Shown piece after piece: positions 8,609 through 53,798 of a stretch of 58,194 nt of DNA (position 1 is the first letter of the stretch; each line of letters starts with the position of its first letter). The position numbers were made by a program, and so were the translations under genes. The notes below the pieces were generated by a model, which saw nothing but the letters and a program-made list of their open reading frames with translations, made no database searches and was not told the DNA's origin. Location: NCBI GenBank assembly GCA_947627565.1, contig CANQWO010000009.1, positions 1-58,194 of the forward strand, given 5' to 3'. This DNA is from an uncultured Clostridia bacterium. Its GTDB lineage: Bacteria > Bacillota > Clostridia > Christensenellales > Borkfalkiaceae.

Positions 8609-9832
8609 ATGAAAAAAATCGTGATCGGCGGGGGAGCTTCCGGGCTCATGGCGGCATACAGCGCGGCTTCGCGCGGGCATGAAGTCATTCTTCTCGAAAA
8701 GAACGAGAAGCTCGGCAAGAAAATTTATATAACGGGAAAGGGGCGCTGCAATTTGACCAACGATTGCACGCCGGAAGAGTTTCTCGAACATGTGGTCCGC
8801 GGCCGGAAATTTCTCAGGGGCGCGGCTTACCGCTTTTCCGCGGCCGATACGATGAACTTTTTTGAAGAACACGGCCTTGCGCTCAAGGTGGAGCGCGGCA
8901 GACGCGTGTTTCCCGTGAGTGACCATGCGAGCGACGTTACCAAAACTCTGGAATCGGCATGTCGGGAGTGCGGCGTTGAAATTCGGCTTGGAGTCGAAGT
9001 GAATGAAATCGATGTTTTGCATGGTACTGTGCGTGGCATAAACTGTACCATGGGACATATTTCCGCAGAGAATGTCATTCTCGCAACGGGCGGGCTCTCG
9101 TATCCTTCGACGGGGTCAACGGGAGACGGCTATCGGTTTGCCGCGGCGCTCGGACACACGGTCACCGCGTGCGTGCCGTCGCTCGTCGGGATCGAGGTCC
9201 TCGGGGTCGCGGCAGCGCAGGGCATTTCCCTCAAGAATTGCGCTCTGACGTGCAGACATGGGAGGAAGATCATTTTTTCGGAGCAGGGCGAGTTGCTGTT
9301 CACCCATTACGGGATCTCCGGGCCGCTTGTTTTGTCGCTCTCCGCGAACATCAATCGCATTGCGCCGGACGAATGCCGACTTTCGCTTGATTTTAAGCCT
9401 GCTTTGGATGAAAAAAAGCTCAATGAGCGCCTTCTCCGCGATTTCGGCGAGCGCTCGAACGAGCAGTTGAAGAGCGTGATGCGGGGGCTTCTGCCGGCCG
9501 GATTGGTCGGTCTCGTGCTTTCTGCCGCGGCGGTTTCGCCGGAAAAGCGGGCCAACAGCGTCACGAAAGAGGAGCGGGCGCGCCTCATTGCGGCCCTGAA
9601 ATCTTTCCCGATGACACCCGTTGCCCTTCGCGGATTCCATGAGGCCGTGGTGACGTCGGGGGGCGTGGATCTCAACGAAGTCGATCCGCGCACCATGGGC
9701 TCCAAATTGGTCCGCGGTCTGTATTTCTGCGGAGAAATGCTTGACGTCGACGCCTATACGGGCGGCTACAATCTGCAGATCGCATTTTCAACGGGCTATC
9801 TTGCCGGGATCGGGCAGGGAGAGGCTTCATAA
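8609..9832 (+). CDS. HI0933/YhiN family flavoprotein (NAD(P)/FAD-dependent oxidoreductase)
   Basis: A 407-residue FAD protein. The N-terminal dinucleotide-binding motif is GGGASGLMAAYSAASRG (residues 7-23) and the family signature GKKIYITGKGRCNLTN follows at about 36-51; ATGG near 155 and a C-terminal second FAD contact (GLYFCGEMLDVDAYTGGYNLQ) complete it. The family is widespread but its reaction is not established; some members act on RNA or envelope substrates by inference only. No clear ribosome binding site precedes the ATG. Codons around 9015-9043 contain a degenerate copy of the dispersed 29-bp motif. Next to cmk, plsC and ispH, a common Clostridia arrangement. Confidence 0.9.
   Translation: MKKIVIGGGASGLMAAYSAASRGHEVILLEKNEKLGKKIYITGKGRCNLTNDCTPEEFLEHVVRGRKFLRGAAYRFSAADTMNFFEEHGLALKVERGRRVFPVSDHASDVTKTLESACRECGVEIRLGVEVNEIDVLHGTVRGINCTMGHISAENVILATGGLSYPSTGSTGDGYRFAAALGHTVTACVPSLVGIEVLGVAAAQGISLKNCALTCRHGRKIIFSEQGELLFTHYGISGPLVLSLSANINRIAPDECRLSLDFKPALDEKKLNERLLRDFGERSNEQLKSVMRGLLPAGLVGLVLSAAAVSPEKRANSVTKEERARLIAALKSFPMTPVALRGFHEAVVTSGGVDLNEVDPRTMGSKLVRGLYFCGEMLDVDAYTGGYNLQIAFSTGYLAGIGQGEAS
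9015..9043 (+). repeat. degenerate copy of the dispersed 29-bp motif (copy g)
   Basis: TTTTGC, then GGTACT, then TGCGTG and CATAA line up with copy e (reverse complement of 40284-40312) at about 23 of 29 positions. It lies inside the flavoprotein gene in the same frame as copies c and d. A CATGGTAC/GTACCATG inverted repeat overlaps it (9019-9051). Confidence 0.4.
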
Positions 9833-9860
9833 GGTAATTGCAGAATGCCTGTATATGCAG

Positions 9861-9889
9861 TTTTGCGATGTACTATGTTTGACATACTA
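9861..9889 (+). repeat. dispersed 29-bp motif (copy a), intergenic
   Basis: TTTTGCGATGTACTATGTTT followed by GACATACTA, about 23 of 29 identical to copy d. It lies between the flavoprotein stop and the aroH-cmk promoter. Confidence 0.65.
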
Positions 9890-9921
9890 TATGCCCCGCT
9901 GTCCCGTATCGCAAAAAAATC

Positions 9922-9950
9922 TTGACATTCGCGCGATTTTGCGTTAAAAT
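9922..9950 (+). promoter_or_regulatory. sigma-A promoter of the aroH-cmk operon
   Basis: TTGACA (9922-9927), 17-nt spacer, TAAAAT (9945-9950). A normal ~20-nt leader with AAGGAG precedes the ATG at 9978. Confidence 0.85.
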
Positions 9951-9977
9951 AGACAATGAGAGTAAGGAGAAAGATTT

Positions 9978-18198: not shown

Positions 18199-20139
18199 AT
18201 GAGTATCGAAAAGCCTGTTGAACAAGAAACGGATTTCCCGCTCTATCTCTATCATCATGGCAACAACGATCGGATCTACGAGATCTTCGGCGCCCATCCC
18301 GCAGAGAAAAACGGCGAACGCGGCTATATTTTTCGTGTTTGGGCGCCGCATGCGGTGCGTGTTTCCGTTGTCGGCGATTTTAACGGCTGGGATGCGTCCC
18401 GCGATGTCATGCAGCGCATGGTAGACGGCGAATGCTTCGAATTGTTTATCCCCGGGCTCAAGGAATACGATATCTATAAATATGCCGTTTTGACGCATGA
18501 CGGGAGAACGCTCTTAAAGGCCGATCCCGTCGGATTCCATACCGAAACGCCGCCCGCAACGGCTTCCAAACTCTATGATCTGGAGGGCTATCGTTGGCGG
18601 GACAAGTCCTATCTCGAAGCGATCTCCAAACAAAACATCTTTTCCTCGCCGATGAATATCTACGAGGTCAATCTGCTGTCTTGGAAGCGTCACGAAGACG
18701 GCAATTTTCTCTCATACCGCGATCTTGCGGTCGAACTCGTCAATTATGTCGTCGAGATGGGGTATACCCATGTCGAATTTATGCCCGTCACGGAATATCC
18801 CTACGAGGGCTCTTGGGGATATCAGGTAACGGGCTATTTTGCCGCCACCTCGCGCCTCGGGACGCCCAAAGACTTCATGTATTTGGTCGACAGTTTCCAT
18901 AAGGCCGGGATCGGCGTGATCGTCGATTGGGTCCCCGCGCATTTCCCCAAAGACGCGCACGGGCTCTATGAATTTGACGGCCAGCCGCTCTACGAGAGCA
19001 ACCAATGGGATCGGATGGAGCACAAGAGCTGGGGGACGCGCCGCTTTGACTACGGCAGAAACGAAGTGCTCTCGTTTTTGATCTCGAGCGCCTGCTTTTT
19101 CTTCGACAAATTTCATGTGGACGGGCTTCGGGTCGACGCGGTCGCTTCCATGCTCTATCTCGATTATGATAAGCGGCCGGGAGAGTGGGTCCCCAATATC
19201 TATGGGGAAAACAAAAATCTCGAAGCGATCGCCTTTCTCAGAAAACTCAACGAGGCGGTATTCAAGCGGTTCCCGTATGCGCTCATGATCGCCGAGGAAT
19301 CGACGGCGTGGGGGCTCGTGACCAAACCGGGCTCGGTGGGCGGCCTCGGCTTCAATTATAAGTGGAATATGGGTTGGATGAACGACATGCTCTCCTACCT
19401 CAGTCTCAATCCGTTCTTCCGGATGGGGAGCCACAACAAGCTGACGTTTTCGATGATGTATGCGTTCTCGGAGAACTATGTGCTTCCCATCTCCCATGAC
19501 GAAGTGGTGCACGGGAAGTGCTCGCTGATCAACAAGATGCCGGGTACATACGAAGATAAATTTGCGGGCGTCCGCTCGTTTCTCGGCTATCAAATGGCGC
19601 ATCCCGGCAAGAAGCTCAACTTTATGGGCTATGAATTTGGACAGTTCAAAGAATGGGATTACCATGAAGGGTTGGAGTTCTTCTTGCGCGATAACTACGA
19701 ATTGCACGGAAAACTTTCGTTGCTCGTCAGGGAACTCAACGAATTTTACAGATCGACGCCCGCATTCTATGAGGTAGAGGACTCGTGGGACGGCTTCGAA
19801 TGGCTGGCCGCCGACGACGCAGACCGCAATATTGTCTCCTTTATCCGCAGAGATAAGGCCGGGAACGAAGTACTATGTCTGACATGCTTTTCGGGTACCG
19901 ACGCCGAAGGGTATCTGATGGGAGTCAACAAGAGAGGGAAATACCGCGTGATTTTCTGCACCGACGATAAGAAATACGGCGGCGCGGGCGCGCTGAAACA
20001 TAAGACGTTGATGACGGTGAAAAAACCCAGCCATGGAAAGCAATATTCGTTGCGGTTTACCGTTCCCAAACTCACGACGCTCTATCTCGTCTATGAGGGA
20101 GATCCCAAGAACTCTACGGCGACAAAGCCGAAAAAATAA
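18199..20139 (+). CDS. glgB: 1,4-alpha-glucan branching enzyme
   Basis: A 646-residue GH13 branching enzyme making alpha-1,6 branches in glycogen. An N-terminal CBM48 domain (about 20-115, [20 protein letters not shown]) is followed by the catalytic barrel: [17 protein letters not shown] near 195, DWVPAHF near 240, [15 protein letters not shown] (nucleophile Asp) near 310, and AEESTAW (acid/base Glu) near 360. ISHDEVVHG near 433 is diagnostic for branching enzymes. First gene of a six-gene glycogen cluster. Codons at 19866-19885 contain a 17-bp exact match to the dispersed motif. The ribosome site is weak (GGGGGTGG). Confidence 0.96.
19866..19885 (+). repeat. core of the dispersed motif inside glgB (copy b)
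   Basis: CGAAGTACTATGTCTGACAT. Seventeen bases from AGTACT onward match copy d exactly and CGAAGTACTATG matches copy e. The reading frame differs from copies c and d (here GAA GTA CTA TGT), so the similarity is in DNA, not protein. Confidence 0.5.
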
Positions 20140-20174
20140 TCGAAGGCCCAAGGGCCGTACAGGGGGTTAGAAAA

Positions 20175-21371
20175 ATGCTCAGAAAGAAGGAATGTGTCGC
20201 AATGCTTTTGGCGGGCGGACAGGGCTCAAGGCTCTATGCGCTCACCAATAACATCGCTAAGCCGGCAGTCGCATTCGGCGCGAAATATCGGATCATTGAT
20301 TTTCCGCTCTCCAACTGCATCAACTCGGGGATCGATACGGTGGGCGTGCTCACACAGTATGAGCCCCTCGAGCTCAACGAATATATCGGGAACGGACAGC
20401 CGTGGGATCTCGACCGCGCGTTCGGCGGCGTGCATATCCTTTCTCCCTATCAAGGGAAAAAGAAGCAGTCCTGGTTCGAGGGGACGGCCAACGCCATCTA
20501 TCAGAATCTCGGATTCATGAAGAAATACAATCCGGATTATGTCCTCATTCTCTCGGGCGATCATATCTATAAGATGAACTATGCCGCGATGCTCCGCGCG
20601 CACAAGGAGACGGGGGCCGATTGTACGATCGCCGCCATCGAAGTTCCTCTGAAGGAAGCCTCGCGTTTCGGCATTCTGAACACCAATCCGGACGGGTCGA
20701 TCTATCAATTCGAAGAGAAGCCCAAGGTACCCAAGAGCAATCTTGCCTCGATGGGCATCTATATTTTTACAGCAGAGAAGCTCTATAAATATCTCGAGGC
20801 CGACGACGCTAACCCCAATTCTTCCAAAGATTTCGGAAAAGACGTGTTGCCCGCCATGCTCAATGCGGGGGAGAGGATGTTCTCGTACCGTTTCAAAGGA
20901 TATTGGAAGGACGTCGGGACGATTTCTTCCCTGTGGGAATCCAACATGGATCTGCTCGGCGACGCGCCCTCCTTTGACGTGGGCGACGCCGATTGGAAGA
21001 TCCATTCCCGCAATCCGCTTGCTCCGCCCGAATATATCGGCGAGGAGGCCGTCGTCAAAAATTCCATGATCGCGCTCGGCTGCGAAGTCGAGGGGACGGT
21101 CGTCAACTCCGTTTTGGCGTCCAATGTGGTCGTGGAACGGGGCGCCACCGTGCGCGACGCCGTCATTATGGCGGGGACGGTCGTCAAGACGGGCGCAGTG
21201 GTGGAATATTCCATTGTGGATGAAAATGTTGTCATCGGCGACGGCGCGACCGTCGGCGAAGGCAAGGGGGCTGGCGCCGGGATCGCCGTGCTCGGCAGAA
21301 ATATTACGATCGCCGCGGGCGCCAAAGTAAAGGGCGGCGAAATTCTCGATAAGGACTACAAGGGGGAATAA
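20175..21371 (+). CDS. glgC: glucose-1-phosphate adenylyltransferase, catalytic subunit
   Basis: A 398-residue nucleotidyltransferase making ADP-glucose from glucose-1-phosphate and ATP, the committed step of glycogen synthesis. It has the [14 protein letters not shown] loop (about 13-26), the SGDHIY metal site near 132, and [20 protein letters not shown] near 180 (split here for length: FEEKP, then SNLASMGIY). The C-terminal third is a left-handed beta-helix of hexapeptide repeats. Followed 4 nt later by the GlgD partner. Confidence 0.96.
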
Positions 21372-21375
21372 AATT

Positions 21376-22500
21376 ATGGCACATTCTACAGTCGGCGTGA
21401 TTTTTTCCAATATTCATGACGAAAATATCCCCGAACTTTCGCGTCATCGCACGATGGCGTCGGTGCCGTTCGGCGGGAGATACCGTCTCATCGACTTTGC
21501 TCTGTCCAATATGGTAAATTCGGGGATCACGACGGTCGGTATTGTGACGAAAAACAATTATCAATCGCTCATCGATCATCTCGGAAGCGGAAAGGAGTGG
21601 GACCTCGCGCGCAAGGACGGCGGGATTATCTTGCTTCCGCCCTATTCGGATGAGACGGATCGGCCCTATACCACCCGTCTGGAAGCGCTCATGAGCATTA
21701 CGGGTTTCCTCAACCATCGCAGAGAGGATTACGTCGTCGTCTCCGACTGCGACGGGATCTCCCACATGGATATTGCGGATATCGTGCGCTTCCATGAGGA
21801 AAAGGGCGCCGATATCACCATGGTCTATCACGATGAGACCAAACCCTGCGAGTCCTCCTACTTTATTACGCTCGAACCGGATCCGGCGACGGGGCGCATC
21901 CGCGGGCTCAAGATCAATCCCAAAGATCTCAAAAACGGGTGCGGATATCATCTCTACGTCAACGTCATGGTCATGCGCAGGGAGTTCCTCATCAACACCA
22001 TTCAAGACGCCGTCACGCGCGGGTTTTCGAGTTTCGGGCGAGATATCCTTGCGAAAAATGTGGATACGCTCAAAATTTACGGCTATGCCTTCGAGGGCTT
22101 CTATGCCGGCGTGAACTCCATGCAGGATTACTATGAGCACAGCATGCAGTTGCTCGACAAAGCGGTGCGCGACGAAATTTTCGGCAATCGCGACATCTAT
22201 ACCAAGGTGCGCGACAGTGCGCCTTCCAAGTATCTCGACGGTGCCTACGTCGCCAATTCCCTCATCTCCGACGGTTGCGTCGTGGAGGGAACGGTGGAAA
22301 ATTGCATCCTTTTCCGCGGGGTGAAAGTCGGAAAGGGGAGCGTCGTCAAAAATTCCATTATCATGCAGGACACGGTGATCGGGGAGAATGTGACGCTCGA
22401 TTGCGTCATCACGGATAAAAACGTTGTCATCCGTGACAGACATTCGCTGGCGGGATGTCCGGAGCTCCCTTACTTCATCTCCAAGGGGAGAATGCTGTAA
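21376..22500 (+). CDS. glgD: GlgD, regulatory-type subunit of ADP-glucose pyrophosphorylase
   Basis: A 374-residue paralogue of GlgC. The nucleotide-binding GGxGxRL loop is missing; the N-terminus instead reads GVIFSNIHDENIPELSRHRT, the hallmark of GlgD, while FGGRYRLIDFALSN and the C-terminal beta-helix (SDGCVVEGTVENCILFRGV) remain. In Firmicutes GlgC and GlgD form a mixed tetramer in which GlgD modulates activity. Sits directly between glgC and glgA in the operon. Confidence 0.95.
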   Translation: MAHSTVGVIFSNIHDENIPELSRHRTMASVPFGGRYRLIDFALSNMVNSGITTVGIVTKNNYQSLIDHLGSGKEWDLARKDGGIILLPPYSDETDRPYTTRLEALMSITGFLNHRREDYVVVSDCDGISHMDIADIVRFHEEKGADITMVYHDETKPCESSYFITLEPDPATGRIRGLKINPKDLKNGCGYHLYVNVMVMRREFLINTIQDAVTRGFSSFGRDILAKNVDTLKIYGYAFEGFYAGVNSMQDYYEHSMQLLDKAVRDEIFGNRDIYTKVRDSAPSKYLDGAYVANSLISDGCVVEGTVENCILFRGVKVGKGSVVKNSIIMQDTVIGENVTLDCVITDKNVVIRDRHSLAGCPELPYFISKGRML

Positions 22501-22564
22501 GGCGCGGGCCGAATCATTGGAACGGGAATGCCGCGAAAGCGGAAATAATAAGGGGGGAAACAAA

Positions 22565-24115
22565 ATGACTGCAACCAACAAAACCGGTAGTAAACGGAAG
22601 AGCGAGCCTGTGAACGCGGGACCTGCGATCGAGCTGGTCGAGCCGACTGCGGCGCCCGCGCCCGAAGAGGCGCCCGCCGTGGAAGTGGTGCCCAAGAAAA
22701 AGATCCTGTTTGTGGCGTCCGAGGCCGCACCGTTTATCGCGACGGGCGGGCTGGCGGAGGTCATCGGTTCGCTTTCCAAAGCGCTCGCGAAGAACGATCG
22801 CTATGACGTCCGCGTCATCGTGCCGCTCTATCAGGACATCCGCAAAGAGTATCGCAAAGATTTCCGTTTTATTGGCAATATCTTTGTTCCGCTCTCGTGG
22901 CGCAACCAATACTGCGGGATCTTCGAGTACGAAAAGGACAACGTAACGTTCTATTTCGTAGACAACGAATACTATTTCAAGCGGCCCGGATGCTATGGAT
23001 ATTATGACGACGGCGAACGTTTTGCGTTCTTCTGCCGTAGCGTCATGGAAATTTTGGGATTCATCGGGTTTTATCCCGACATCCTTCACTGCCACGATTG
23101 GCAGGCCGCGCTCGCCGCGCTCTATCTCAAGACGATCTATTGCTTCCGGCCCGAATATCAGTTTATCCGCGCCGTGTTCACCATTCACAACATAGAATAT
23201 CAGGGGAAATATTCTCTCGATATCCTCGAAGATCTATTCGGGATCTCCTATCATTATCGGAATCTTGTCGAATACGACCGCTGCATCAACCTGATGAAAG
23301 GGGCGATCGAATGTTGCGAACGGTTTTCGACGGTTTCTCCGACGTATGCAAACGAGATCAAGGATCCGTATTATGCGCACGGGCTCGACGCGATCGTGCG
23401 CAGGAACGAGTTCAAACTCTGCGGGATCCTCAACGGCATCGACCCCGATTACTACGATCCGGAGACGGATACGGCGCTCTTTGCCAATTACAGCGCCGCG
23501 CATCCCGAGAAGAAGGCCGTCTGCAAAGAGGAACTTCAAAAGATGTTGGGGCTCCCCGTCAAACCGGATACGCCCATCCTCGCCATGATCACCCGCCTTG
23601 TGTCCCACAAGGGGTTGGATCTCGTCAAGGAGGTTATCGAGCAGGCATTGCGGCAGGATATGCAGTTTATCCTTCTCGGCACGGGCGACTCCGGTTATGA
23701 AAATTATTTCACCGATCTTGCCCGCAGATACCAGGGGAAAGTCGTCTCCATCATTTCCTTCAATTCCGATCTTTCGCGGAAGATCTATGCGGGCGCCGAT
23801 CTCTTCCTGATGCCCTCCAAGAGCGAGCCGTGCGGGCTCTCTCAAATGATCGCGAGCCGCTACGGTACGGTGGCGATCGTCCGCGAGACGGGCGGTCTGA
23901 AGGACAGCATCACGCCCTACGGCGCCGGCGGGAACGGGTTCACGTTCGCCAATTACGACGCATACGATATGCTGTATGTCATCAATGAAGCGCTCGGGGT
24001 GTATCGGATCAAGGGCGAATGGGCAAAACTTGTCAAAAAGGCGATGGAGACCGATTTCACATGGTCGACGTCGGCGAAGAGCTATGAGAATCTCTATCTC
24101 AGCATTTTGAATTAA
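22565..24115 (+). CDS. glgA: glycogen synthase (ADP-glucose type, GT5)
   Basis: A 516-residue GT5 synthase that elongates alpha-1,4 chains. The ADP-glucose motif KxGGLxxV appears as ATGGLAEVIGSLSKAL about 60 residues from the start; CHDWQAAL and HNIEYQGKY are present, and the C-terminal active site shows PSKSEPCGLSQMIA and RETGGLKDSI. Compared with usual GlgA (about 475), an extra 40-residue Lys/Pro/Ala/Glu-rich tail precedes KKKILFVASEAAPF. The ATG at 22565 has a GGGGGGA site; the frame open from 22424 overlaps glgD and is not used. Confidence 0.95.
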   Translation: MTATNKTGSKRKSEPVNAGPAIELVEPTAAPAPEEAPAVEVVPKKKILFVASEAAPFIATGGLAEVIGSLSKALAKNDRYDVRVIVPLYQDIRKEYRKDFRFIGNIFVPLSWRNQYCGIFEYEKDNVTFYFVDNEYYFKRPGCYGYYDDGERFAFFCRSVMEILGFIGFYPDILHCHDWQAALAALYLKTIYCFRPEYQFIRAVFTIHNIEYQGKYSLDILEDLFGISYHYRNLVEYDRCINLMKGAIECCERFSTVSPTYANEIKDPYYAHGLDAIVRRNEFKLCGILNGIDPDYYDPETDTALFANYSAAHPEKKAVCKEELQKMLGLPVKPDTPILAMITRLVSHKGLDLVKEVIEQALRQDMQFILLGTGDSGYENYFTDLARRYQGKVVSIISFNSDLSRKIYAGADLFLMPSKSEPCGLSQMIASRYGTVAIVRETGGLKDSITPYGAGGNGFTFANYDAYDMLYVINEALGVYRIKGEWAKLVKKAMETDFTWSTSAKSYENLYLSILN

Positions 24116-24134
24116 CCGCAACCAAAGAAAAATG

Positions 24135-24159
24135 ACGCGGCCGCGATGAGCGGCCGCGT
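24135..24159 (+). other. strong hairpin between glgA and glgP
   Basis: Arms ACGCGGCCGC (24135-24144) and GCGGCCGCGT (24150-24159) with a 5-nt loop; no T run. It could stabilise the upstream message or set the glgA:glgP ratio. Confidence 0.6.
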
Positions 24160-24182
24160 AATCCCGAAAAGAGGAAGATATT

Positions 24183-26612
24183 ATGGAAAATTTAACACAA
24201 CAGGAGGCGGAACGCCTGATCGCAGGAAAACTTTCCCGCTATTTCGGCGTTGCGCCGGCAGAGGCCTCCCGCGAACAGCTCTATAAGGCCGTCGTCATGG
24301 CGGTGCGGGATCTGATGCTCGAAAAACGTCAAAAGTTCCATTTGAAGACGAAGGCTGCGCGTGCGAAGAGGGTATATTATCTTTGCATGGAATTTTTGAT
24401 GGGGCGTTCTCTCAAAAACAGCGTCTACAATCTCGGGATCGGCGCTCCGCTCGACGCCGCGCTCAAAAAGTACAAGACGAAACTGGAAGACCTCTATGAA
24501 GAGGAGCCCGATGCTGGGCTCGGGAACGGCGGCCTCGGCCGTCTTGCCGCTTGCTTCCTCGACGGGCTTGCAACGCAAAATTATCCCGCGATGGGCTTCT
24601 CCATCTGCTATCAATATGGATTGTTCAAGCAGAAGATCGTCGACGGTTGGCAGATCGAACTTCCCGACGTCTGGCTCCCGGGCGGGGAGGCCTGGCTCAC
24701 CATGCGTACCGATAAGACCTTCATCGTTCGTTTCGACGGGCAAGTCGAGGAGAAATGGACGGATCACGGCATGGAGACGATCTATCATAATGCCAAGGAA
24801 GTGGAGGCCGTCGCGTATGACATGATGGTGTCCGGAGCCGATTCGGAAGCGGTCAGCGTGCTTCGGCTGTGGCGTTCCCGTGCCGTGCAGGAATTTGACA
24901 TGCAGGCCTTTTCGCAGGGGAATTACGAGGCCGTCATGCGGGATGACAGCGACGCGCAGTTGATTTCCAAAGTGCTCTATCCTTCCGATAATCACAGCGA
25001 GGGGAAGTCGCTCCGCTTGAAACAGCAATATTTTCTCGTTTCGGCGTCTCTGCAATGTATCGTTTCCGATCATAAACGCCGCTACGGTTCGTTGGCCCGT
25101 CTGCCCGAAATGGCGGCCATCCATATCAATGATACGCACCCCGCGCTTGCGATCCCCGAACTCATGCGCATCCTCGTCGACGAAAACTATTTTGACTGGG
25201 ATACCGCTTGGAATATTACGACCGCCACTTGCGCATACACCAATCACACCGTGCTCGCGGAGGCGCTTGAAACGTGGGACGAACAGCTTGTGGCGCGGAA
25301 ACTTCCCCGTATTTATTGCATTTTGAAGGAGATCAACCGCCGTTTTTGCGATGACCTTTGGCATCGCTTCCCGGGGGACTGGAACAAGATCTCCCGCATG
25401 GCGATCCTGTCCCATGACAGCGTGCGCATGGCTAATCTCTGCGTGGTCGGTTCCCACTCCGTAAACGGCGTCTCCCAACTGCACAGCGAGATCATCAAAG
25501 AGAGCATTTTCCGCGATTTCTACGAATATACGCCCGAAAAGTTCTGCAATGTCACAAACGGCATTGCGCACAGAAGATGGCTCAACCAGTCCAATCCGGA
25601 ACTTTGTGCGCTGCTCGATGATTGTATCGGGACCGGGTACGCAAAAGATGCCGAAAAACTGCTCGGATTCAAGAAGTTTGCGAACGATAAGAGCGTCTTA
25701 AAGCGGCTTGATGAGATCAAGGCGATCAAAAAAGTCCAATTTTCGAACTATGCCAAAAAGACGCAGGGGATCGAGATCGACCCCAATACGGTGTTTGATG
25801 TACAGGCGAAGCGGATGCACGAATACAAGCGCCAACTTCTCAACGTCTTGCACATCATCGGCGTCTATAACGATCTTCGGGAAAACCCCAATCTCGACGT
25901 GCTTCCCAAGACATACATTTTCGGGGCGAAGGCGGCCGCCGGATACGACATGGCCAAGCAAATCATGAAACTTATCTGTTTCTTGGCAGAGGATATCCGG
26001 AAAGATCCCCGCATCCGCGAAAAGCTGAATGTCGTATACATGGAGAATTACAACGTTACCATGTCGGAGAAGCTCATGCCCGCCTCGGAGATATCCGAGC
26101 AGATTTCGCTCGCGGGAAAAGAGGCGAGCGGAACGGGGAACATGAAGTTTATGATCAACGGCGCGCTTACGATCGGCACGCTCGACGGCGCCAACGTTGA
26201 GATGGCGGAACGGGTGGGGGACGAAAATATCTTTATTTTCGGACTGAAAGCCGACGAAGTCAAGGCCATTTGGAATCAAGGTTATAATTCCAGCGTCTAT
26301 TATAACCAAAACACCTATTTGCGCAAGATCATCGAATCGCTCATCGTGGGCTTCAACGGCTGTTCGTTTGCGGAGATCGCGAACTATCTCCTGCGCAATG
26401 TGCGTATCGCCGATCCGTATATGTGTCTTGCGGACTATGAATCGTATGCGCAGACGCAGGAAAAGATGAGCGCGCTCTATGCAAACGATAAGATGAGTTG
26501 GAATAAAAAGTCGCTCATGAATATCGCGTCCGCGGGATATTTCTCCGCCGACCGCAGCGTCCGCGAATATGCGGCGAATATTTGGCACATCAAACCACTT
26601 GGAAAATCATAA
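24183..26612 (+). CDS. glgP: glycogen phosphorylase
   Basis: An 809-residue GT35 phosphorylase releasing glucose-1-phosphate from glycogen ends. Present are EEEPDAGLGNGGLGRLAACF near 104-123 (given as two parts: EEPDAGLGNGG and LGRLAAC), HINDTHPA near 315, VFDVQAKRMHEYKRQ near 537 and the pyridoxal-phosphate lysine in EASGTGNMKF near 650. Length matches bacterial enzymes. It is in the glycogen operon after a hairpin and ends 7 nt before the amylase start. Confidence 0.96.
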   Translation: MENLTQQEAERLIAGKLSRYFGVAPAEASREQLYKAVVMAVRDLMLEKRQKFHLKTKAARAKRVYYLCMEFLMGRSLKNSVYNLGIGAPLDAALKKYKTKLEDLYEEEPDAGLGNGGLGRLAACFLDGLATQNYPAMGFSICYQYGLFKQKIVDGWQIELPDVWLPGGEAWLTMRTDKTFIVRFDGQVEEKWTDHGMETIYHNAKEVEAVAYDMMVSGADSEAVSVLRLWRSRAVQEFDMQAFSQGNYEAVMRDDSDAQLISKVLYPSDNHSEGKSLRLKQQYFLVSASLQCIVSDHKRRYGSLARLPEMAAIHINDTHPALAIPELMRILVDENYFDWDTAWNITTATCAYTNHTVLAEALETWDEQLVARKLPRIYCILKEINRRFCDDLWHRFPGDWNKISRMAILSHDSVRMANLCVVGSHSVNGVSQLHSEIIKESIFRDFYEYTPEKFCNVTNGIAHRRWLNQSNPELCALLDDCIGTGYAKDAEKLLGFKKFANDKSVLKRLDEIKAIKKVQFSNYAKKTQGIEIDPNTVFDVQAKRMHEYKRQLLNVLHIIGVYNDLRENPNLDVLPKTYIFGAKAAAGYDMAKQIMKLICFLAEDIRKDPRIREKLNVVYMENYNVTMSEKLMPASEISEQISLAGKEASGTGNMKFMINGALTIGTLDGANVEMAERVGDENIFIFGLKADEVKAIWNQGYNSSVYYNQNTYLRKIIESLIVGFNGCSFAEIANYLLRNVRIADPYMCLADYESYAQTQEKMSALYANDKMSWNKKSLMNIASAGYFSADRSVREYAANIWHIKPLGKS

Positions 26613-26619
26613 GGCAGCC

Positions 26620-28461
26620 ATGCAACTACGGTATGATCCATTAGATCGCGCGTGTAAATCGCAAATCGGAGCTGTTTCGCGCGGGAGCGAGGTACTATTT
26701 CACGTATACTATTCGGCAGGCGGAGAAGAAAACTTCTCCGCCGATAGCTGTACGCTGAATTTTTATCAGGACGACGGAACGAAATTTTCCTTTCCGATGA
26801 AACGAACGGAGGACGGATTTACCGTTGCGCTCCGATTCCATCGGATCGGGTTGTATTTCTATTATTTTGACTTGGGGGGAAGCCGTTTTCTCGGCTGCGG
26901 GCCTCTGCGTGCGGGCGTCGTGACGGGGGAGCCCGCAAGCTGGCAGATCACCGTTTACGATGAATCGTATGAAACGCCCGCCTGGTTCAAGGGCGGGATC
27001 ATGTATCAGATCTTTCCCGATCGGTTTTGCAAGGTGGGGGAGTATCCCGCCAAGCCCTATCAAATTTTGCGGCAAGATTGGGGCGGACAACCCTATTTTC
27101 GGCCAAATTCCTTTGGAAAAGTGCTCAATAACGACTTCTTTGGCGGCAATCTCAACGGCATTCGAAGCCGACTCTCCTATCTTGCTTCGCTTCATGTGAC
27201 GACGATCTATCTCAATCCCATTTTCGAAGCCTATTCCAACCATCGCTATGATACGGGCGACTATCTGAAGATTGACGGTCTGCTCGGCACAGAGGCCGAT
27301 TTTAAGGCCTTGGCCGACGAAGCCGCCGGCTATGGGATCCGCTTGATCCTCGACGGCGTTTTCAATCATACGGGGGACGACAGCCGCTATTTCAATAAAT
27401 ACGGCCGCTACGACAGCTTGGGCGCCTATCAATCCCGTAATTCCCCCTATGCCGATTGGTATCGCTTCCAACATTTTCCCGATTCTTACGACAGTTGGTG
27501 GGGCGTCGAAACGCTCCCGGCCGTCAATGAAGATTCCCAAAGTTACCGCGATTTTCTCTTCGGGGCGGGCGGCGTCATCAAAACTTGGCTCAAACGCGGC
27601 GCGAGCGGCTATCGGCTCGACGTCGCCGACGAATTGCCCGATTCCTTTTTGCAATTACTGCGGCAAACCGTCAAATCGGAGGCGCTCGACGCGCTGGTCC
27701 TCGGCGAGGTTTGGGAGGACGCGTCCAATAAGATCGCTTACAGCGAGCGCCGCCAATATCTTCAGGGCCGCGAGCTGGATTCGGTCATGAATTATCCGCT
27801 CAAGAACTCGATCATTCATTTTGTTTTGACGGGCGATCTTTCGGAACTGCGTGAGACGGTCGCGATGCTCCGCGACAACTATCCCAAGGAGACGTTGGAC
27901 TGTCTCATGAATATTTTGGGGACGCATGACACGCCGCGCATTTTGACCGTAATGGGTAACAGGCAATGCGCCGACAAGGAGGAAATGTCCCGCACGCGTC
28001 TCTCCGACGAAGAAAAGACGCGCGCCAAGGCGCTCGTCAGGATGGCGGCAGTCTTGCAATATACGCTTCCGGGCGTTCCCTGCGTGTTTTACGGCGACGA
28101 GGCCGGGCTTGAGGGCTACATGGACCCGTTCTGCCGCGCGTGTTTCCCGTGGGACCAGATGGACAAATCGCTGTGCGCGTTTTATCGGCGGCTCGGCGAG
28201 ATCAGAACAAAGCGCATTCCCGAGGCGTTCCGCGACGGAGAATATCGTGAAATCTACGCCGATACCCGATGCCTCATCTTTGAAAGAAAAAGCGCACGCA
28301 CAAGCGCGTATGTATTTTGCAACAATTCCGCGACGCGATACAGTTTGAAGTTTCGGTCAGATGGTCGCTACAAAGAATTTCTGAGCGGCGAGGAATCGAC
28401 GGAGAGATTGGAGATCGGGCCGTTTTCATATGGGATCGTCGGGAAAATCGATGAAAAATAA
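26620..28461 (+). CDS. GH13 alpha-amylase family enzyme (neopullulanase/cyclomaltodextrinase-like)
   Basis: A 613-residue cytoplasmic GH13 enzyme without signal peptide. An N-terminal beta domain of about 130 residues resembles CBM34; the barrel shows IMYQIFPDRF near 128, NHRYDTGDY near 207, DGVFNHTG near 245, GYRLDVADEL (nucleophile Asp) near 330, LGEVWED (acid/base Glu) near 362 and LGTHDTPRI near 428. It likely hydrolyses malto-oligosaccharides or limit dextrins left by GlgP. The ATG at 26620 is preferred; translation could start at 26569 within glgP, but that segment does not look conserved. Last gene of the glycogen cluster. Confidence 0.93.
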   Translation: MQLRYDPLDRACKSQIGAVSRGSEVLFHVYYSAGGEENFSADSCTLNFYQDDGTKFSFPMKRTEDGFTVALRFHRIGLYFYYFDLGGSRFLGCGPLRAGVVTGEPASWQITVYDESYETPAWFKGGIMYQIFPDRFCKVGEYPAKPYQILRQDWGGQPYFRPNSFGKVLNNDFFGGNLNGIRSRLSYLASLHVTTIYLNPIFEAYSNHRYDTGDYLKIDGLLGTEADFKALADEAAGYGIRLILDGVFNHTGDDSRYFNKYGRYDSLGAYQSRNSPYADWYRFQHFPDSYDSWWGVETLPAVNEDSQSYRDFLFGAGGVIKTWLKRGASGYRLDVADELPDSFLQLLRQTVKSEALDALVLGEVWEDASNKIAYSERRQYLQGRELDSVMNYPLKNSIIHFVLTGDLSELRETVAMLRDNYPKETLDCLMNILGTHDTPRILTVMGNRQCADKEEMSRTRLSDEEKTRAKALVRMAAVLQYTLPGVPCVFYGDEAGLEGYMDPFCRACFPWDQMDKSLCAFYRRLGEIRTKRIPEAFRDGEYREIYADTRCLIFERKSARTSAYVFCNNSATRYSLKFRSDGRYKEFLSGEESTERLEIGPFSYGIVGKIDEK

Positions 28462-28465: not shown

Positions 28466-28493
28466 TATGCCAGACATAATTATGTCTGGCATA
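28466..28493. repeat. perfect 28-bp palindrome after the GH13 gene
   Basis: Half-site TATGCCAGACATAA (28466-28479) and its exact complement to 28493, only 4 nt after the stop codon, with no T run. Its TATGTCTGGCATA half differs by one base from the TATGTCTGACATA core of the dispersed motif. Confidence 0.75.
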
Positions 28494-28684: not shown

Positions 28685-28726
28685 CCATAACTATTCGTAA
28701 AAGCGTTGTTTTGCGAATAGTTATGG
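28685..28726. repeat. long hairpin, 18-bp arms
   Basis: CCATAACTATTCGTAAAA pairs with TTTTGCGAATAGTTATGG (one T-G) around GCGTTG. No T run follows, so it is not an obvious terminator. Confidence 0.8.
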
Positions 28727-28840: not shown

Positions 28841-28990
28841 AGGCATGCCGATCTGCGCAAACGATGTCATTGGCGTGCACACTGCGCCGTATCGTTCGAT
28901 TCCGCATCATCGGTCGAAAAATAGCAACCCATTTTCGACTTGTCTCTTTTTTTTTGCCCTGCCTGTGTTATTATGGTTTTGGAGGTATTT

Positions 28991-34283: not shown

Positions 34284-34311
34284 AGTATGTCACGCAGAGT
34301 ACTCTGCACTC
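34283..34311 (-). repeat. dispersed 29-bp motif (copy f) at the rluB start
   Basis: On the - strand it holds GCAGAGTACTCTGCGTGACATA; given in parts: palindrome GCAGAGTACTCTGC, then GTGACATAC. TATGTCACGCA and AGTACT are shared with copy e. Confidence 0.5.
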
Positions 34312-34342
34312 CTCTGTTTTATGCCCCAACGGGAGCTACTAT

Positions 34343-40251: not shown

Positions 40252-40283
40252 GAAAAATGCGTGAACAACCGCTGAAATTCAGC

Positions 40284-40312
40284 GATTATGTCACGCATAG
40301 TACTTCGCAAAA
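40284..40312 (-). repeat. dispersed 29-bp motif (copy e), between dacB and lysA
   Basis: On the - strand TTTTGCGAAGTACTATGCGT then GACATAATC: 25 of 29 identical to copy d. A CGCTGAA-A-TTCAGCG palindrome (40270-40284) abuts it. Confidence 0.75.
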
Positions 40313-40329
40313 TCGATATTATTGCCGAC

Positions 40330-46256: not shown

Positions 46257-47021
46257 TTATGCGTTACGAAAATTTTCGGCACGGTCAAGGAAACGCGTTT
46301 TTGCGATCGGGATCCCCTCTTTTTGCAGCCGGACGACGTATTCGACATTCTTTTTTGGTAGAATGGGCGCATTGACGACGTCGCGCGGGGCGAGCCCGGC
46401 GGAGGTGCAGAAATCGTAAAAGTCCGCAAGCAAATTGCGGTGACGGGCCACGGGAAGGATCCCGCTCTTGCCCAAAGCGTTCTTACCGCATTCGAATTGC
46501 GGCTTCAAGAGCACGAGCGCCTCGCCCTGCGCGGGCAAAATGTCCAATACGGCGGGCAAAACAAGGCGGAGCGAGATGAAACTGAGATCGGAGACCACGC
46601 CGTCGAGCGGGAGCGGAAAATCCGTCCGCTTCAAATACCGCGCGTTGGTCTTGTCCATCACGGTGACGCGATCATCCGAAGCGATGCGGGGATCGAGCAA
46701 GCTGTCGCCTACGTCGACGCAAAAGATATGCCGCGCGCCGTGGCGGAGGAGGCAATCGGAAAATCCGCCTGTACTCGCGCCGAGATCCGCAAAAATTCTC
46801 CCCGCGACGGGAAACGAAAAGACGTTGAGCGCGCGCTCGAGCTTTCTGCCGCCGTTCGACACAAAATCGTCGTCCTGCAAGACGGTAAAAGCGTCCGCTT
46901 CGGATACTTCGTCGGCGGGCGTAAGCTGCTTTCCCGCCCGCAAAATGCGGCCCGCCGCAAGCGCCTCTTTCGCTTTTGTGCGGGAGCCGAACCGTTCCGC
47001 AAAGAATTTATCCGCGCGCAT
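46257..47021 (-). CDS. tlyA: TlyA-family rRNA methyltransferase
   Basis: A 254-residue TlyA/hemolysin A family protein: S4 domain at the N-terminus (MRADKFFAERFGSRTKAKEAL) and an FtsJ-type methyltransferase with SAM motif FADLGASTGGFSDCLL near 78-93. Known members 2'-O-methylate 16S and 23S rRNA. The start overlaps the end of dxs by 14 nt. Confidence 0.93.
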   Translation of the reverse strand: MRADKFFAERFGSRTKAKEALAAGRILRAGKQLTPADEVSEADAFTVLQDDDFVSNGGRKLERALNVFSFPVAGRIFADLGASTGGFSDCLLRHGARHIFCVDVGDSLLDPRIASDDRVTVMDKTNARYLKRTDFPLPLDGVVSDLSFISLRLVLPAVLDILPAQGEALVLLKPQFECGKNALGKSGILPVARHRNLLADFYDFCTSAGLAPRDVVNAPILPKKNVEYVVRLQKEGIPIAKTRFLDRAENFRNA

Positions 47022-48717
47022 GACAGCCCCTGATTTTTTCGGCGATCTCATCCGGATCAAGCCCGCTCTTCACGGAGAGCGACGAGATCTCGCCATGCGG
47101 GATAAAGGCGTCGCCGTATCCGAAGCAAAAGACCGCCTTCCCCGAATTGCGATAGAACCGCGCGATGGCGTCGCCGATCCCGCCGCGAACGATGTTGTCC
47201 TCCAGCGTGATGACATAAGATTCCCGTCGGGAAGCGAGGAGCGCTTCGTCGAGCGGACGCAGGAAGCGCGCGTTGACGATGGAAAAGTCGATGCCCTCCT
47301 TGGCGAGCGTCGCGCGCAGTTTTTGCGCCAAAGAAATACAGCGTCCCCCCGCCGCAAAGACGATTATATCAGACATAGTACTGTGCAAAACTTCAAATTT
47401 CCCGATTTCAAGCTCGCAATGCGCCCCGATCTCCCCGAGATGCGGATAGCGAACGGCCATCGGGCCGTCGTAGCGAAGCCCCGCGCGCAACATGGCGCGC
47501 AGTTCGGAAATATCCTTGGGGATCCCTATCGTCAGATTGGGGATGGGCGCAAGATAGGAAAGATCGAAAATGCCCTGATGCGTCTCCCCATCCGGCCCCG
47601 TGATGCCGGCGTGGTCGATGCAAAACGTAACGGGCAAATTCTGTCCGCAGATGTCATGGATGATCTCATCGTATGCACGCTGTAAAAATGTCGAGTAAAT
47701 GGCGTAATAGGGACGCATCCCCTGCGTCGCCAACCCGGCCGCGAGCACAGCCGCGTGTTCCTCACAGATGCCGACGTCGAAAGCACGCTCCGGGAATTGC
47801 TCGAAGAAGTTTCGGAGCCCGAGACTGTCCGTCATGGCGGCCGTAATCACGGCGACGCGCTCATCGTGAGAGGCGAGCCGCATGAGTTCGTCGCCCAGCG
47901 CTTCGGAATAGGAGTGCTCGACGCGCGGTTTGGGATCGAGCCCGTGCGTCTCGACGGGGGCATTTTCGCTGAAGGGATACCCCTGCCCCTTCTTTGTGAC
48001 GACGTGCAGGAGTACGCTCGAGGAGCGGAGCGTTTCCTTGGCCTCCTCCAACGCGGGCAAGAGTTCTTCGAGCTTGTTTCCATTGACAATGCCCCGATAG
48101 GTCAAGCCGAAGCGCTCAAAGAGCGCAACGTCTTCCGTGCAGGCAGAATCTTTCAATTCGTTAAGAATCTCATGCGTACTTCCGACCGTCGGCGAGATCG
48201 ACATCCCGTTGTCGTTGAGGAGGATGAGAATGTTTGTATGTAAGATCTTGAGACTGTTCAACGCCTCGTAGATGAGTCCGTTCTGAAAGGAACCGTCGCC
48301 GATGAGCGCAATGACGGAAAAATCCTCCCCCTTGAGGTCGCGCGCCTTGGCGATCCCCAGCGCGGCCGAGAGAGCCGTGCCCGCATGCCCCGTGTCGTAG
48401 CAGTCGTATTCGCTCTCTTCCCGCTTGGGGAACCCGGAGAGCCCCCCCTCCTTTCTCAGCGTATGGAAGAGCGGGGCGCGGCCGGAAAGCAATTTATGCG
48501 TGTAACATTGATGGCCTACGTCGAAGATGATCTTATCGCGCGGGAAATCGAAGACGCGGTGAAGCGCCACGGTGAGTTCTACCGTGCCGAGATTGGATGA
48601 GAGATGCCCGCCGCAGGTCGAAACGGTGCGAAAAATCTCTTCCCGCAGCGTCTCACAGAGCGCATTCAGTTGTTCTACGGAGGAATTTTTGATCTCCGCG
48701 GATGAAATCGTTCTCAT
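47008..48717 (-). CDS. dxs: 1-deoxy-D-xylulose-5-phosphate synthase
   Basis: A 569-residue thiamine-diphosphate enzyme, first step of the MEP isoprenoid pathway. GHQCYTHKLLSGR near 67, TPP site GDGSFQNGLIYEALN near 138-152, CEEHAAVLAAGLA near 320 and DHAGITGPDGETHQG near 365. Shorter N-terminus than Escherichia coli Dxs, normal for Clostridia. Codons at 47362-47390 contain copy c of the dispersed motif (protein VLHSTMSDII). Confidence 0.96.
   Translation of the reverse strand: MRTISSAEIKNSSVEQLNALCETLREEIFRTVSTCGGHLSSNLGTVELTVALHRVFDFPRDKIIFDVGHQCYTHKLLSGRAPLFHTLRKEGGLSGFPKREESEYDCYDTGHAGTALSAALGIAKARDLKGEDFSVIALIGDGSFQNGLIYEALNSLKILHTNILILLNDNGMSISPTVGSTHEILNELKDSACTEDVALFERFGLTYRGIVNGNKLEELLPALEEAKETLRSSSVLLHVVTKKGQGYPFSENAPVETHGLDPKPRVEHSYSEALGDELMRLASHDERVAVITAAMTDSLGLRNFFEQFPERAFDVGICEEHAAVLAAGLATQGMRPYYAIYSTFLQRAYDEIIHDICGQNLPVTFCIDHAGITGPDGETHQGIFDLSYLAPIPNLTIGIPKDISELRAMLRAGLRYDGPMAVRYPHLGEIGAHCELEIGKFEVLHSTMSDIIVFAAGGRCISLAQKLRATLAKEGIDFSIVNARFLRPLDEALLASRRESYVITLEDNIVRGGIGDAIARFYRNSGKAVFCFGYGDAFIPHGEISSLSVKSGLDPDEIAEKIRGCHARG
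47362..47390 (-). repeat. dispersed 29-bp motif inside dxs (copy c)
   Basis: On the - strand TTTTGCACAGTACTATGTCT then GATATAATC: 27 of 29 identical to copy d. Confidence 0.8.
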
Positions 48718-50836: not shown

Positions 50837-50838
50837 AA

Positions 50839-51213: not shown

Positions 51214-51278
51214 AATCATTTCTCCTTACTAATGAAATCATTATAGCACATGTCGAAAAAAATTACTACCGTTTTTTC

Positions 51279-51764: not shown

Positions 51765-51793
51765 GATTTATCTCCTTATAAATGATTTCCGGA

Positions 51794-52153
51794 TCAGCCC
51801 TTCACGGGATAGACGCGCACGGCATTTTTGGGGATATTCAATGCGCCGGCCGCAATTTCGAGGATGTTCATGCGCAGGATCAGCCCGTCCTCGCCCTGAA
51901 ACAACACGACGGCCCCCACCGCCGTCCCCTCCTCCTCTGTGATCATGACCGTGGCGTCGTCGACGCCGTCCAACTTTTCAAGCAACGCCACAAGCCGCGC
52001 CTCTTCCGTGGACATCTTGTAGGCGTCCTCCTCTTTTCCCGCCGCAAAGACGCGGTAGCAGATGAGCAGCAAAACGAGTGCCGCAAGCAGGATCATGACG
52101 ACGCGGAACGATTTGCTCTTCACGATGTCTTTGAGAGTCTCCGGAACTTTCAT
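51794..52153 (-). CDS. spoIIIAG: stage III sporulation protein AG
   Basis: A 119-residue protein with one membrane helix (VVMILLAALVLLLICYRVF) and a short ring-building domain ending LNIPKNAVRVYPVKG. It is shorter than Bacillus SpoIIIAG (about 229) and lacks most of the beta-insert. Confidence 0.88.
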   Translation of the reverse strand: MKVPETLKDIVKSKSFRVVMILLAALVLLLICYRVFAAGKEEDAYKMSTEEARLVALLEKLDGVDDATVMITEEEGTAVGAVVLFQGEDGLILRMNILEIAAGALNIPKNAVRVYPVKG

Positions 52154-52605
52154 GTCACTTCCGCCTCCGTGCCGTACTGCGTTTCAAGCGCCTCTTTTAC
52201 GCGGGTCATGATATATATACGCGCCTCCTCCTCGTTTATTCCGGAAAGATCGAGCTTTACCTTGATTTTTTCAAGGGGAAAATATGCCGAAGCGGCCCGC
52301 GTGGCGTCGACCTCTGCCGAAAGCGAAAATTCATCGGATAGGTAGGCCGCGATCGCCGCCTCGTCCCGTTCCTCCAAAAGGTGCGCGCACGCGGCAAGAT
52401 AGGCGGGATCTTCTTCGAGCTCCCCCGTTTCAAGTGCGGGCTTCCCCGTCCGGATCCACCCGACCAGCGGGGAGATCATGACGACGAGAACAAAGAGACG
52501 CGTACATCCCTTTACAAACGTTCCCATTTTCCCGTTCGGACAAATGATCGCAACGACCGCGGAGAGGATCACGACGCCTGCGATGCTCAGAATATAGGCT
52601 TTCAT
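52150..52605 (-). CDS. spoIIIAF: stage III sporulation protein AF
   Basis: A 151-residue protein with two N-terminal membrane helices (YILSIAGVVILSAVVAII, LFVLVVMISPLVGWI) and a cytoplasmic or intermembrane alpha/beta domain, as in SpoIIIAF. Overlaps AG by 4 nt. Confidence 0.9.
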   Translation of the reverse strand: MKAYILSIAGVVILSAVVAIICPNGKMGTFVKGCTRLFVLVVMISPLVGWIRTGKPALETGELEEDPAYLAACAHLLEERDEAAIAAYLSDEFSLSAEVDATRAASAYFPLEKIKVKLDLSGINEEEARIYIMTRVKEALETQYGTEAEVT

Positions 52606-53798
52606 CAGAGGATCACTCCCGAAGAACAGATGAGCAGAATGAGCGTCAAAAAATAGAGAAACGCGATGGCAAGGAGCGCGGCGAGGAAATAGCCGCTGTC
52701 CTTGGCGAGCCCCGATAAAAACGCGGAGACCTTGCCCGATACGGGCTCCGTCACGGCCGCCGAGATGCGCAAAAAGAACTGAAACGCGGCAAAGAGCAAT
52801 ACCGGTTTCAAAATGGTCCCCGCGAGCAGAAAGAGCGCAAAGGCGCCCAGCGCGTTTTTGATGACGGCGCTCCCCGCAATGACGAGATCGACGCCCCCCG
52901 ATAAAAATCCGCCCACGATGGGCACGGAGCCGGAGATGATGTATTTGACGGCGCGCAGCGAGAGCCCGTCATATTGCGCCGCGGCGATCCCCTGCACGCT
53001 CAACAGCAGACTGAAGAGCCCGAGCGTCAGGCCGATGAGCCACTTTGAAATGCTCTTGAACAGGTCGGAAAGTTTATCCGTGCGGACCTCCGGCGAGAGA
53101 TTCCCGATAAACGTCAAGACGATCACGATGACCGCCGAAGGCAGCACGATGTCCGAAAAGAGCGCGACGATGCCGCTCGACATAAAGGCGACGGCGGGCC
53201 TGTAGATGCCGACGGAGACGGCTCCCCCGCTTGCCGCCATCAAAGTGAGCAGCATCGGATAGACGATCTCCATCTGCCTCCGCATGCTGTTGATGGTCTG
53301 AAATCCCGTTTCCAACAGCCCCAAGAGCACTGTGAGAACGACCGCCCCCACCGAAATGAAGGAAACGAAATGGATTATGTCAGACATAGTACTCTGCAAA
53401 AAGCTGTTTTTGACCGCATTCAGGATCCCGCAGAGCAATGTAATGATGAGGATCACGGCAAATGCGGGGACCATGCGCTTCCCCTCTTCCCACACGAGCG
53501 CAACGGACGCCTCGAATATCGAACCGTAGTCAAGCGCAAAGTCCCCCGTCAGAACGGCGCGCAGGCGGTCCTTCACGGAAATGCCGCCGAATTGCGTCAG
53601 GGAATCCAGAAATTCCTGGAGTTCCTCCGTATCGAGGGAATCCAGCAAGTCGTCGAGCATGTCTTCAAATTCTTTTTCCTCCTCACTGCCTCCATCCGCA
53701 TAGGCGCGCATATTACCGCGCGGAAAAAGCAGCATGATGAGAACCATGAGAACGGCCGCAAAGACGATGCATTTGCGCCATGAAATACGCCGCGTCAT
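52605..53798 (-). CDS. spoIIIAE: stage III sporulation protein AE
   Basis: A 397-residue multi-pass membrane protein with signal-like N-terminus and about eight helices; GGFLSGGVDLVIAGSAVIKNA near 290 is a family block. Part of the feeding-tube apparatus. Codons at 53373-53401 contain copy d of the dispersed motif (protein FLQSTMSDII). Confidence 0.95.
   Translation of the reverse strand: MTRRISWRKCIVFAAVLMVLIMLLFPRGNMRAYADGGSEEEKEFEDMLDDLLDSLDTEELQEFLDSLTQFGGISVKDRLRAVLTGDFALDYGSIFEASVALVWEEGKRMVPAFAVILIITLLCGILNAVKNSFLQSTMSDIIHFVSFISVGAVVLTVLLGLLETGFQTINSMRRQMEIVYPMLLTLMAASGGAVSVGIYRPAVAFMSSGIVALFSDIVLPSAVIVIVLTFIGNLSPEVRTDKLSDLFKSISKWLIGLTLGLFSLLLSVQGIAAAQYDGLSLRAVKYIISGSVPIVGGFLSGGVDLVIAGSAVIKNALGAFALFLLAGTILKPVLLFAAFQFFLRISAAVTEPVSGKVSAFLSGLAKDSGYFLAALLAIAFLYFLTLILLICSSGVIL
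53373..53401 (-). repeat. dispersed 29-bp motif inside spoIIIAE (copy d, best copy)
   Basis: On the - strand TTTTGCAGAGTACTATGTCT then GACATAATC. The centre TATGTC-T-GACATA is an inverted repeat. Confidence 0.8.

Follow-up and report, generated by a model that had tools for sequence, protein, structure and literature searches.

Oriented palindromic sites converging on a dif-like locus in a Clostridia genus, with a membrane PadR protein as their candidate reader

We analyzed a 58,194-nt stretch of DNA (the window; contig CANQWO010000009.1 of assembly GCA_947627565.1) from an uncultured Clostridia bacterium, in which a 29-bp motif recurs both inside genes and in the gaps between them. The motif is half of a longer palindrome, and the family of sites that it belongs to is an oriented signal at the DNA level with a palindromic core, whose orientation goes with the replichore rather than with the genes. 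Most of the sites carry their stronger arm on the origin side and converge on a locus with a dif-like site and a gene for a XerS-like recombinase (xer) at 28.7-30.3 kb of the window, so they point along the leading strand to dif. The explanation that we favor, with moderate confidence, is that the motif may be the binding site of a terminus-domain system in which a membrane PadR protein (PadR-TM) tethers the terminus.

We refer to the genome of the window as G000; it has 1,804,522 bases on 63 contigs, and the window is its contig C9. Aligned on the leading strand, 96 sites from this and related genomes read TTTGCATAGTACTATG-TCWGA-CATAATA, and the leading-strand consensus is TTTGCATAGTACTATGTCWGACATAATA. 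In full, the site is a palindrome about 39 bp long, TTTTGCATAGTACTATG-TCWGA-CATAGTACTATGCAAAA, and most copies have one strong outer arm while the other has decayed, the strong half being TTTTGCANAGTAYTATG. The core is palindromic and the outer arms are mostly asymmetric. Near-symmetric sites, with arm scores within 6 of each other, make up 14 of the 96 (for example, G000 C6 45543), and there are a few close inverted pairs (G000 C6 20563 and C4 68446/68459). An earlier note, made from the letters of the window alone, had already described an inverted-repeat core and an oriented signal carried by DNA rather than protein, and both held up.

For the polarity counts we used a matrix with symmetric arms, so detection favors neither direction. 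At a threshold of 14 it found 70 sites in the 1.077 Mb examined and none in the Markov and reversed controls. Of the 68 sites with usable skew, 64 had their stronger arm facing the origin (p 6e-15); the four exceptions were two G000 sites that belong to close pairs and two sites in G001. With the threshold lowered to 12, the genomes G007 and G006 added and the sign set by xer on five contigs, the count was 85 of 96 (p 2.5e-15). Both counts include the 17 sites that trained the matrix, which were picked by sequence and not by strand. Related species are not independent, so the binomial p-values are, strictly taken, too small. The better argument is that the same polarity is found in several genomes, across an inversion between the chromosome arms, and in named loci. 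These named loci are the best 80 of 591 xer loci in genome_contigs, nearly all from uncultured genomes and with up to 10 kb of flank; 29 of the 80 carry sites. Outside padR promoters, 25 of their 28 asymmetric sites point to xer and 3 away, and the same loci hold 4 symmetric sites and 2 sites in padR promoters besides. On one long contig of G007, the clearly asymmetric sites are on the plus strand at 11 to 107 kb and on the minus strand at 130 to 300 kb, except for a single plus-strand member of a close pair at 248.7 kb. On G012 C8, where the skew is weak, all seven sites point to xer, one of them nearly symmetric.

We rejected orientation by gene strand. Among the 70 sites, 23 lie inside open reading frames (ORFs) of at least 150 aa, on either strand, and 47 lie outside them. 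Thirteen of the 23 are off the gene strand, and where such mechanically called ORFs run against the skew, 12 of 13 sites follow the skew. The agreement with the local genes that the earlier note had seen is real inside the window but does not carry over to these 23 sites, of which only 10 are on the gene strand; a strand bias does exist outside the window, where it follows the replichore rather than the genes.

Selection at the DNA level is also visible in orthologues. Four genes keep the site at the same codons at a local protein identity of about 50-75%: dxs, miaA, spoIIIAE and one for a class A penicillin-binding protein, in the last of which the motif is antisense. In G001 the miaA copy and that in the penicillin-binding protein gene have changed, and in the spoIIIAE gene of G019 the site is gone although a similar peptide is kept. 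The glgB copy of G000 has no counterpart in any of six distinct orthologues and no indel relative to them, so the site came by substitution. This was the sole gain that we examined, and for this copy we rejected insertion of a mini-repeat, whose domesticated form had been one of the origins suggested in the earlier note.

All seven copies that the earlier note had located in the window were found there. On the plus strand, a weak copy at 9015-9043 (15.7 bits with our site model R1, built from 17 sites; E 0.001 for the window) lies in a flavoprotein gene of family TIGR00275 (8609-9832), a second at 9861-9889 (24.5 bits) in the gap 9833-9977, and a third at 19862-19889 in glgB (18199-20139), in a different reading frame, as the earlier note had said. 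On the minus strand, the copies at 34283-34311 (21.1 bits) and 40284-40312 (26.2 bits) are in the gaps 34284-34342 and 40252-40329, that at 47362-47390 (26.1 bits) is in dxs (47008-48717), and the best of the window, at 53373-53401 (29.6 bits), is in spoIIIAE (52605-53798). The dxs copy is at the same codons in all six distinct orthologues aligned, with a variant in G015, and the spoIIIAE copy is missing from one of the four distinct orthologues aligned. The last two copies share 27 of 29 bases, just as had been counted. Family searches matched the proposed host genes (flavoprotein, glgB at 19.87 kb, dxs and spoIIIAE), with the best family match of the spoIIIAE gene, at 175.5 bits, below its cut-off of 247.45. 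With at most three mismatches, the 17-base core AGTACTATGTCTGACAT has six matches in the window against 0.06 expected from shuffles.

Between the last plus-strand copy (19.87 kb) and the first minus-strand copy (34.28 kb) are three features that the earlier note had missed: two core copies that together make up a perfect 28-bp inverted palindrome (28466-28493), followed by the dif-like site (28689-28722), an inverted repeat AACTATTCGTAAAA - 6 bp - TTTTGCGAATAGTT, and by xer itself (29258-30322, plus strand), which encodes a 354-aa XerS-like tyrosine recombinase with a PF00589 match. Near 28-30 kb the GC skew of the window also changes sign, being mostly positive before this point and mostly negative after it, with one opposite 2-kb step on each side. 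The best NCBIfam match of the recombinase is XerS (NF003462), at 194.6 bits and below the cut-off of 267; its orthologues are 74-79% identical in the five relatives whose examined stretches include xer, and 78% identical in G012. By eye, the dif-like repeat upstream of xer is kept, with variants, in 6 of 6 genomes, and symmetric or double sites stand beside it in 5 of 5 relatives. Asymmetric sites flank xer on both sides in G000, G015, G006, G007 and G012, and on one clear side in G018 and G001.

A few further observations concern this locus. Three relatives (G007, G006 and G018) have a further half-copy of the dif arm, AACTATTCGTAAAATTGAC, overlapping the TTGAC box in front of xer, which suggests that the recombinase may control its own gene. 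A helix-turn-helix gene (Cro/C1 type, with a weak RstR-like match) lies at 28940-29251, between dif and xer in G000; we tried it as the reader of the sites and rejected it, as it has no match beside xer in five relatives (two 37% matches lie elsewhere). Glycogen metabolism genes, namely glgB and an alpha-amylase-family gene, adjoin dif at 18199-28461, and the dif-proximal palindrome is just past the end of the latter.

Contrary to what the earlier note had suggested, the sites are not spread over the whole genome. The R1 scan of G000, in which 150 of 258 first-look candidates were scored, listed 42 matches at E up to 10, all on contigs C1, C4, C6, C9 and C43, which hold 371,644 bases or 20.6% of the genome; the other 58 contigs had no R1 match among the candidates scored. 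A scan for the core with up to two mismatches gave 16 matches in G000 against 0 for the reversed pattern. We rejected its genome-wide, uptake-, Chi- and KOPS-type readings because of this distribution and because the site is a long palindrome found in the terminus sector only; of the options it offered, a nucleoid-type signal came nearest.

When the ORFs of these contigs were aligned to one 388-kb contig of G007 (320 kb of it compared), C9 fell at 66-137 kb (24 of 37 ORFs aligned), C43 at 143-146 kb (2 of 7), C4 in two parts (36 of 64 in all), with its first 52 kb at 152-202 kb and the remainder on the other arm at 8-33 kb, C6 at 204-260 kb (22 of 36) and the start of C1 at 282-306 kb (10 of 95). 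The xer gene is on the same G007 contig at 108-109 kb. From this synteny, the sites of G000 appear confined to a sector around the terminus, as the matS sites of MatP are; the genus genomes used are all drafts, and the sector is placed by one contig and not by a closed chromosome. The placement of C4 also reveals an inversion between the chromosome arms around the terminus (G000 C4 54-76 kb against G007 C1 8-33 kb), and inside it the two members of the site pair at C4 68.4 kb point in opposite directions.

Across the 41 genomes searched, the 17-base core has 7 to 38 matches in each of the 25 genomes of the genus (g1, with G000 included) and 0 in all 16 genomes from 16 other families. The reversed core matched once in one genus genome and also had matches in three genomes of other families. 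Each genome has roughly 15-30 sites in a block that surrounds dif, which on one contig of G007 spans about 290 kb; on G007 C1 there is about one site per 13 kb. A different word, TCGAAATGACA, is also over-represented at 1-240 kb of that contig, with 24 copies against 0.29 expected.

The candidate reader is encoded by a gene on another of the site-bearing contigs (G000 C6 29760-31994, plus strand). The 744-aa protein matches PadR (PF03551) at 67.6 bits, against a cut-off of 27; its PadR winged helix is joined by a long, charged linker to a C-terminal part with four hydrophobic segments. Its predicted structure consists of a winged helix and four C-terminal helices, and its top-ranked structural matches are PadR proteins; RTP is absent from the best 50 (VIA-align), which still leaves room for a likeness to RTP. 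PadR-TM has a match in 37 of 37 genus genomes, in G002 as a fragment at a contig end. The operators of PadR proteins are ATGT/ACAT inverted repeats, and PadR dimers are described as structurally close to RTP (PMC3506622).

Upstream of the padR-TM gene, a site abuts a promoter-like TTGAC box. This arrangement is found in 27 of 30 padR-TM loci, with the TTGAC word 12-21 bp from the center of the site; the spacing is exactly 19 bp in 17 loci, and the five loci with a spacing of 12 bp have another TTGAC at 19. In L096 and L101, which are among the 27, the site precedes a longer ORF and is 0.6 and 1.1 kb away from the PadR domain on its upstream side. The other three loci met the matrix threshold only partly or not at all: the sites of L078 and L102 score in a separate scan, and L100 has a degenerate copy and a second core further upstream.

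Long PadR genes also occur near xer outside the genus. An ORF of this kind (at least 420 aa) was found in 7 of 24 genomes from other families, beside xer in G026 (0.5 kb), G029 (1.1 kb), and G033 and G059 (about 0.15 kb each); in the remaining three, which are in more pieces, the gene is on a contig other than that of xer. Within the best 80 xer loci, 26 have a long PadR ORF in the flank, and all 25 of the complete xer-linked ORFs have 3-4 hydrophobic segments at the C-terminus. At the promoters of distant padR-TM genes, the arm word TTGCATANTAY is present in 7 of 26 and the core in 3 of 26, compared with 7 and 2 of 270 control upstream stretches; arm or core together occur in 10 of the 26 promoters and in at most 9 of the 270 controls. 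The arm word was partly chosen after the promoters had been seen, so its p-value is too favorable; shuffled words gave 0.1 promoter matches on average and at most 2, compared with 10. Two further families have weak sites; one of their genomes, G053, has a site at the promoter of its padR gene and another, symmetric site some 2 kb away from xer. Going by these matches, the site family ranges over g1, partly over f18 and f20, and near xer in the named relatives. In the distant xer loci L230-L275, TTGCATANTAY also occurs outside padR promoters, 27 times against 6.3 on average for shuffled words, and downstream of xer it is on the plus strand 18 times against 2.

Taken as sequence comparisons, these results establish that the sites are conserved and mostly point to the dif-like locus, and that the padR-TM gene is linked through its promoter to a site; elsewhere in the Clostridia the gene is often linked to xer as well. 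We propose that PadR-TM dimers bind the sites, which we consider quite probable, and that they would control their own gene. The protein would also keep the terminus region on the membrane, with the division septum as the probable place; this tethering role is distinctly less certain than the binding, but we lean towards it. With the terminus at the membrane, the XerS-like recombinase and the FtsK/SpoIIIE pump would find dif last. The least certain step is that the asymmetry would make each complex a one-way obstacle, readily displaced by a fork or pump that is heading to dif and resistant to motion away from it. More broadly, this may be a new Clostridia terminus system, in which a membrane PadR with an RTP-like fold reads dif-pointing sites and anchors the last-replicated DNA, and whose family predates the genus and is linked to xer and dif; we hold this wider version tentatively, as plausible but a little short of probable.

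There are several points that weigh against this proposal. Eleven of the 96 sites are exceptions to the polarity, and on G041 C2, which is without usable skew or xer, five of six asymmetric sites are on one strand and the sixth is opposite. A strong near-symmetric site at G006 C1 156.4 kb is tilted the wrong way. Confinement was measured well in G000 only, and even there the C1 sites at 41, 115 and 117 kb fall outside the synteny placement. Among the matches listed in other genomes, the contigs that carry them amount to at most about 25% (G041), 27% (G012), 36% (G007) and 39% (G020) of the genome, as upper bounds from rounded genome sizes and with contig order undefined. In the three genus genomes with both genes on one contig, padR-TM and xer are 73 kb (G015), 124 kb (G006) and 125 kb (G007) apart, and the spacer between ATGT and ACAT in the core is 3 nt compared with 8-10 nt in known PadR operators. 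Since matS is not described as polar, a pure tether would leave the polarity unexplained.

The distant families are also less tidy than the genus. Five genomes with a long PadR gene (G026, G029, G033, G037 and G059) have no clear R1 site, with one match at E 0.83 in G033, and G025, which is without such a gene, has two weak matches (E 0.16 and 0.46). A de novo motif search around xer in G026, G029 and G059 found only a coding repeat, tRNA-like words and tandem repeats; the dyad part of the search was swamped by runs of N in G059 and G015, where word counts alone were informative. In G026 the skew keeps its sign at xer. Outside promoters, the arm word has no leading-strand polarity in the distant families, with 8 occurrences along the skew and 19 against it.

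The main rival to a membrane tether is a replication fork trap, in which PadR-TM would be a third unrelated terminator protein and the sites would be Ter sites that let forks pass towards dif and stop the ones that leave it. Convergence on dif is what a trap would show; we consider a trap unlikely, although it is the alternative that we take most seriously. Some near-symmetric sites lie far from dif and have two strong arms (G000 C4 16924 and C6 45543, G007 223612, G006 156416) and would stop forks coming from the origin if arm strength sets polarity. The sites also outnumber the roughly ten Ter sites each of Tus/Ter and RTP/Ter, and PadR-TM is predicted to be an integral membrane protein whereas Tus and RTP are soluble. 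The RTP family (PF02334) was over its cut-off in 0 of 25 genomes, with one sub-threshold match in G027 and a positive B. subtilis control.

Orientation signals read directly by FtsK/SpoIIIE would share the leading-strand orientation that converges on dif, as FtsK-orienting polar sequences (KOPS) and SpoIIIE recognition sequences (SRS) do. However, KOPS and SRS are short, non-palindromic and dense along whole replichores, while the sites here are long and palindromic and sit on contigs with about a fifth of the G000 bases, and the conserved site at the padR-TM promoter indicates another reader. We judge this explanation improbable, and give slightly less credence still to the idea that the sites are operators in the regulon of an ordinary PadR transcription factor. 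The nearly fixed distance from the padR TTGAC box and the two-thirds share of sites outside ORFs of at least 150 aa (47 of 70) would suit a regulon, but the intragenic sites on either strand do not, nor do the single chromosome sector and the replication polarity that the sites share. A dispersed mobile mini-repeat of the repetitive extragenic palindrome (REP) or miniature inverted-repeat transposable element (MITE) type, inserting with a strand bias near the terminus, would be palindromic, dispersed, strand-biased and sometimes doubled in inverted copies, but it is very hard to reconcile with a glgB copy that replaces homologous codons, with sites that persist at the same codons in diverged orthologues, and with five contigs of G000 that hold every listed match.

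In many genomes a recombinase and a dif-like site can now be named along with a set of sites and its candidate reader, which makes it directly testable how most Firmicutes organize the end of the chromosome, and the results suggest that a family annotated as ordinary PadR regulators would include chromosome-architecture proteins. The earlier note knew of no described family with the sequence of the motif and we found none either; among open-licence PMC papers, judged by title and the start of the abstract, none dealt with the site or with a terminus role of PadR.

Compared with known systems, the locus resembles XerS/difSL in that a XerS-like gene and a dif-like site are neighbors close to where the skew switches, but differs in that the recombinase is below the XerS cut-off; difSL also differs in sequence from the dif-like repeat here. 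RacA anchors through DivIVA and not through membrane helices of its own. It is described in B. subtilis as having an N-terminal helix-turn-helix, binding repeated sites and anchoring DNA to the membrane, with ram sites densest near the origin (PMC6593407), whereas the sites here lie around dif and the maximum of the cumulative skew (on G007 C1 and in the window). In HAAS-PadR pairs the PadR winged helix works together with a partner linked to the membrane (PMC11237479), but there a standalone PadR goes with a separate HAAS protein and here the winged helix and the membrane helices are in one protein. With RTP/Ter and Tus/Ter our sites share an oriented convergence on dif (PMC6549158); they differ in being more numerous, mostly half-palindromic and sometimes symmetric, and in their predicted membrane protein. 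The matS sites, of which 23 are reported in the 800-kb Ter macrodomain of E. coli (PMC3330122), are read by MatP, which is reported to bind lipid membranes as well (PMC6538776). Our system would be like matS/MatP in having a site repeated some twenty times in a terminus domain and a dedicated protein linked to the division site, and would differ in the site itself, in its polarity and in a reader with predicted transmembrane helices; MatP (PF06303) had no match over its cut-off in 25 genomes of the same order, with a positive E. coli control. If our proposal is right, a single protein would combine the anchoring of MatP-ZapB with the polarity of RTP, which would be a new way to organize the end of a chromosome.

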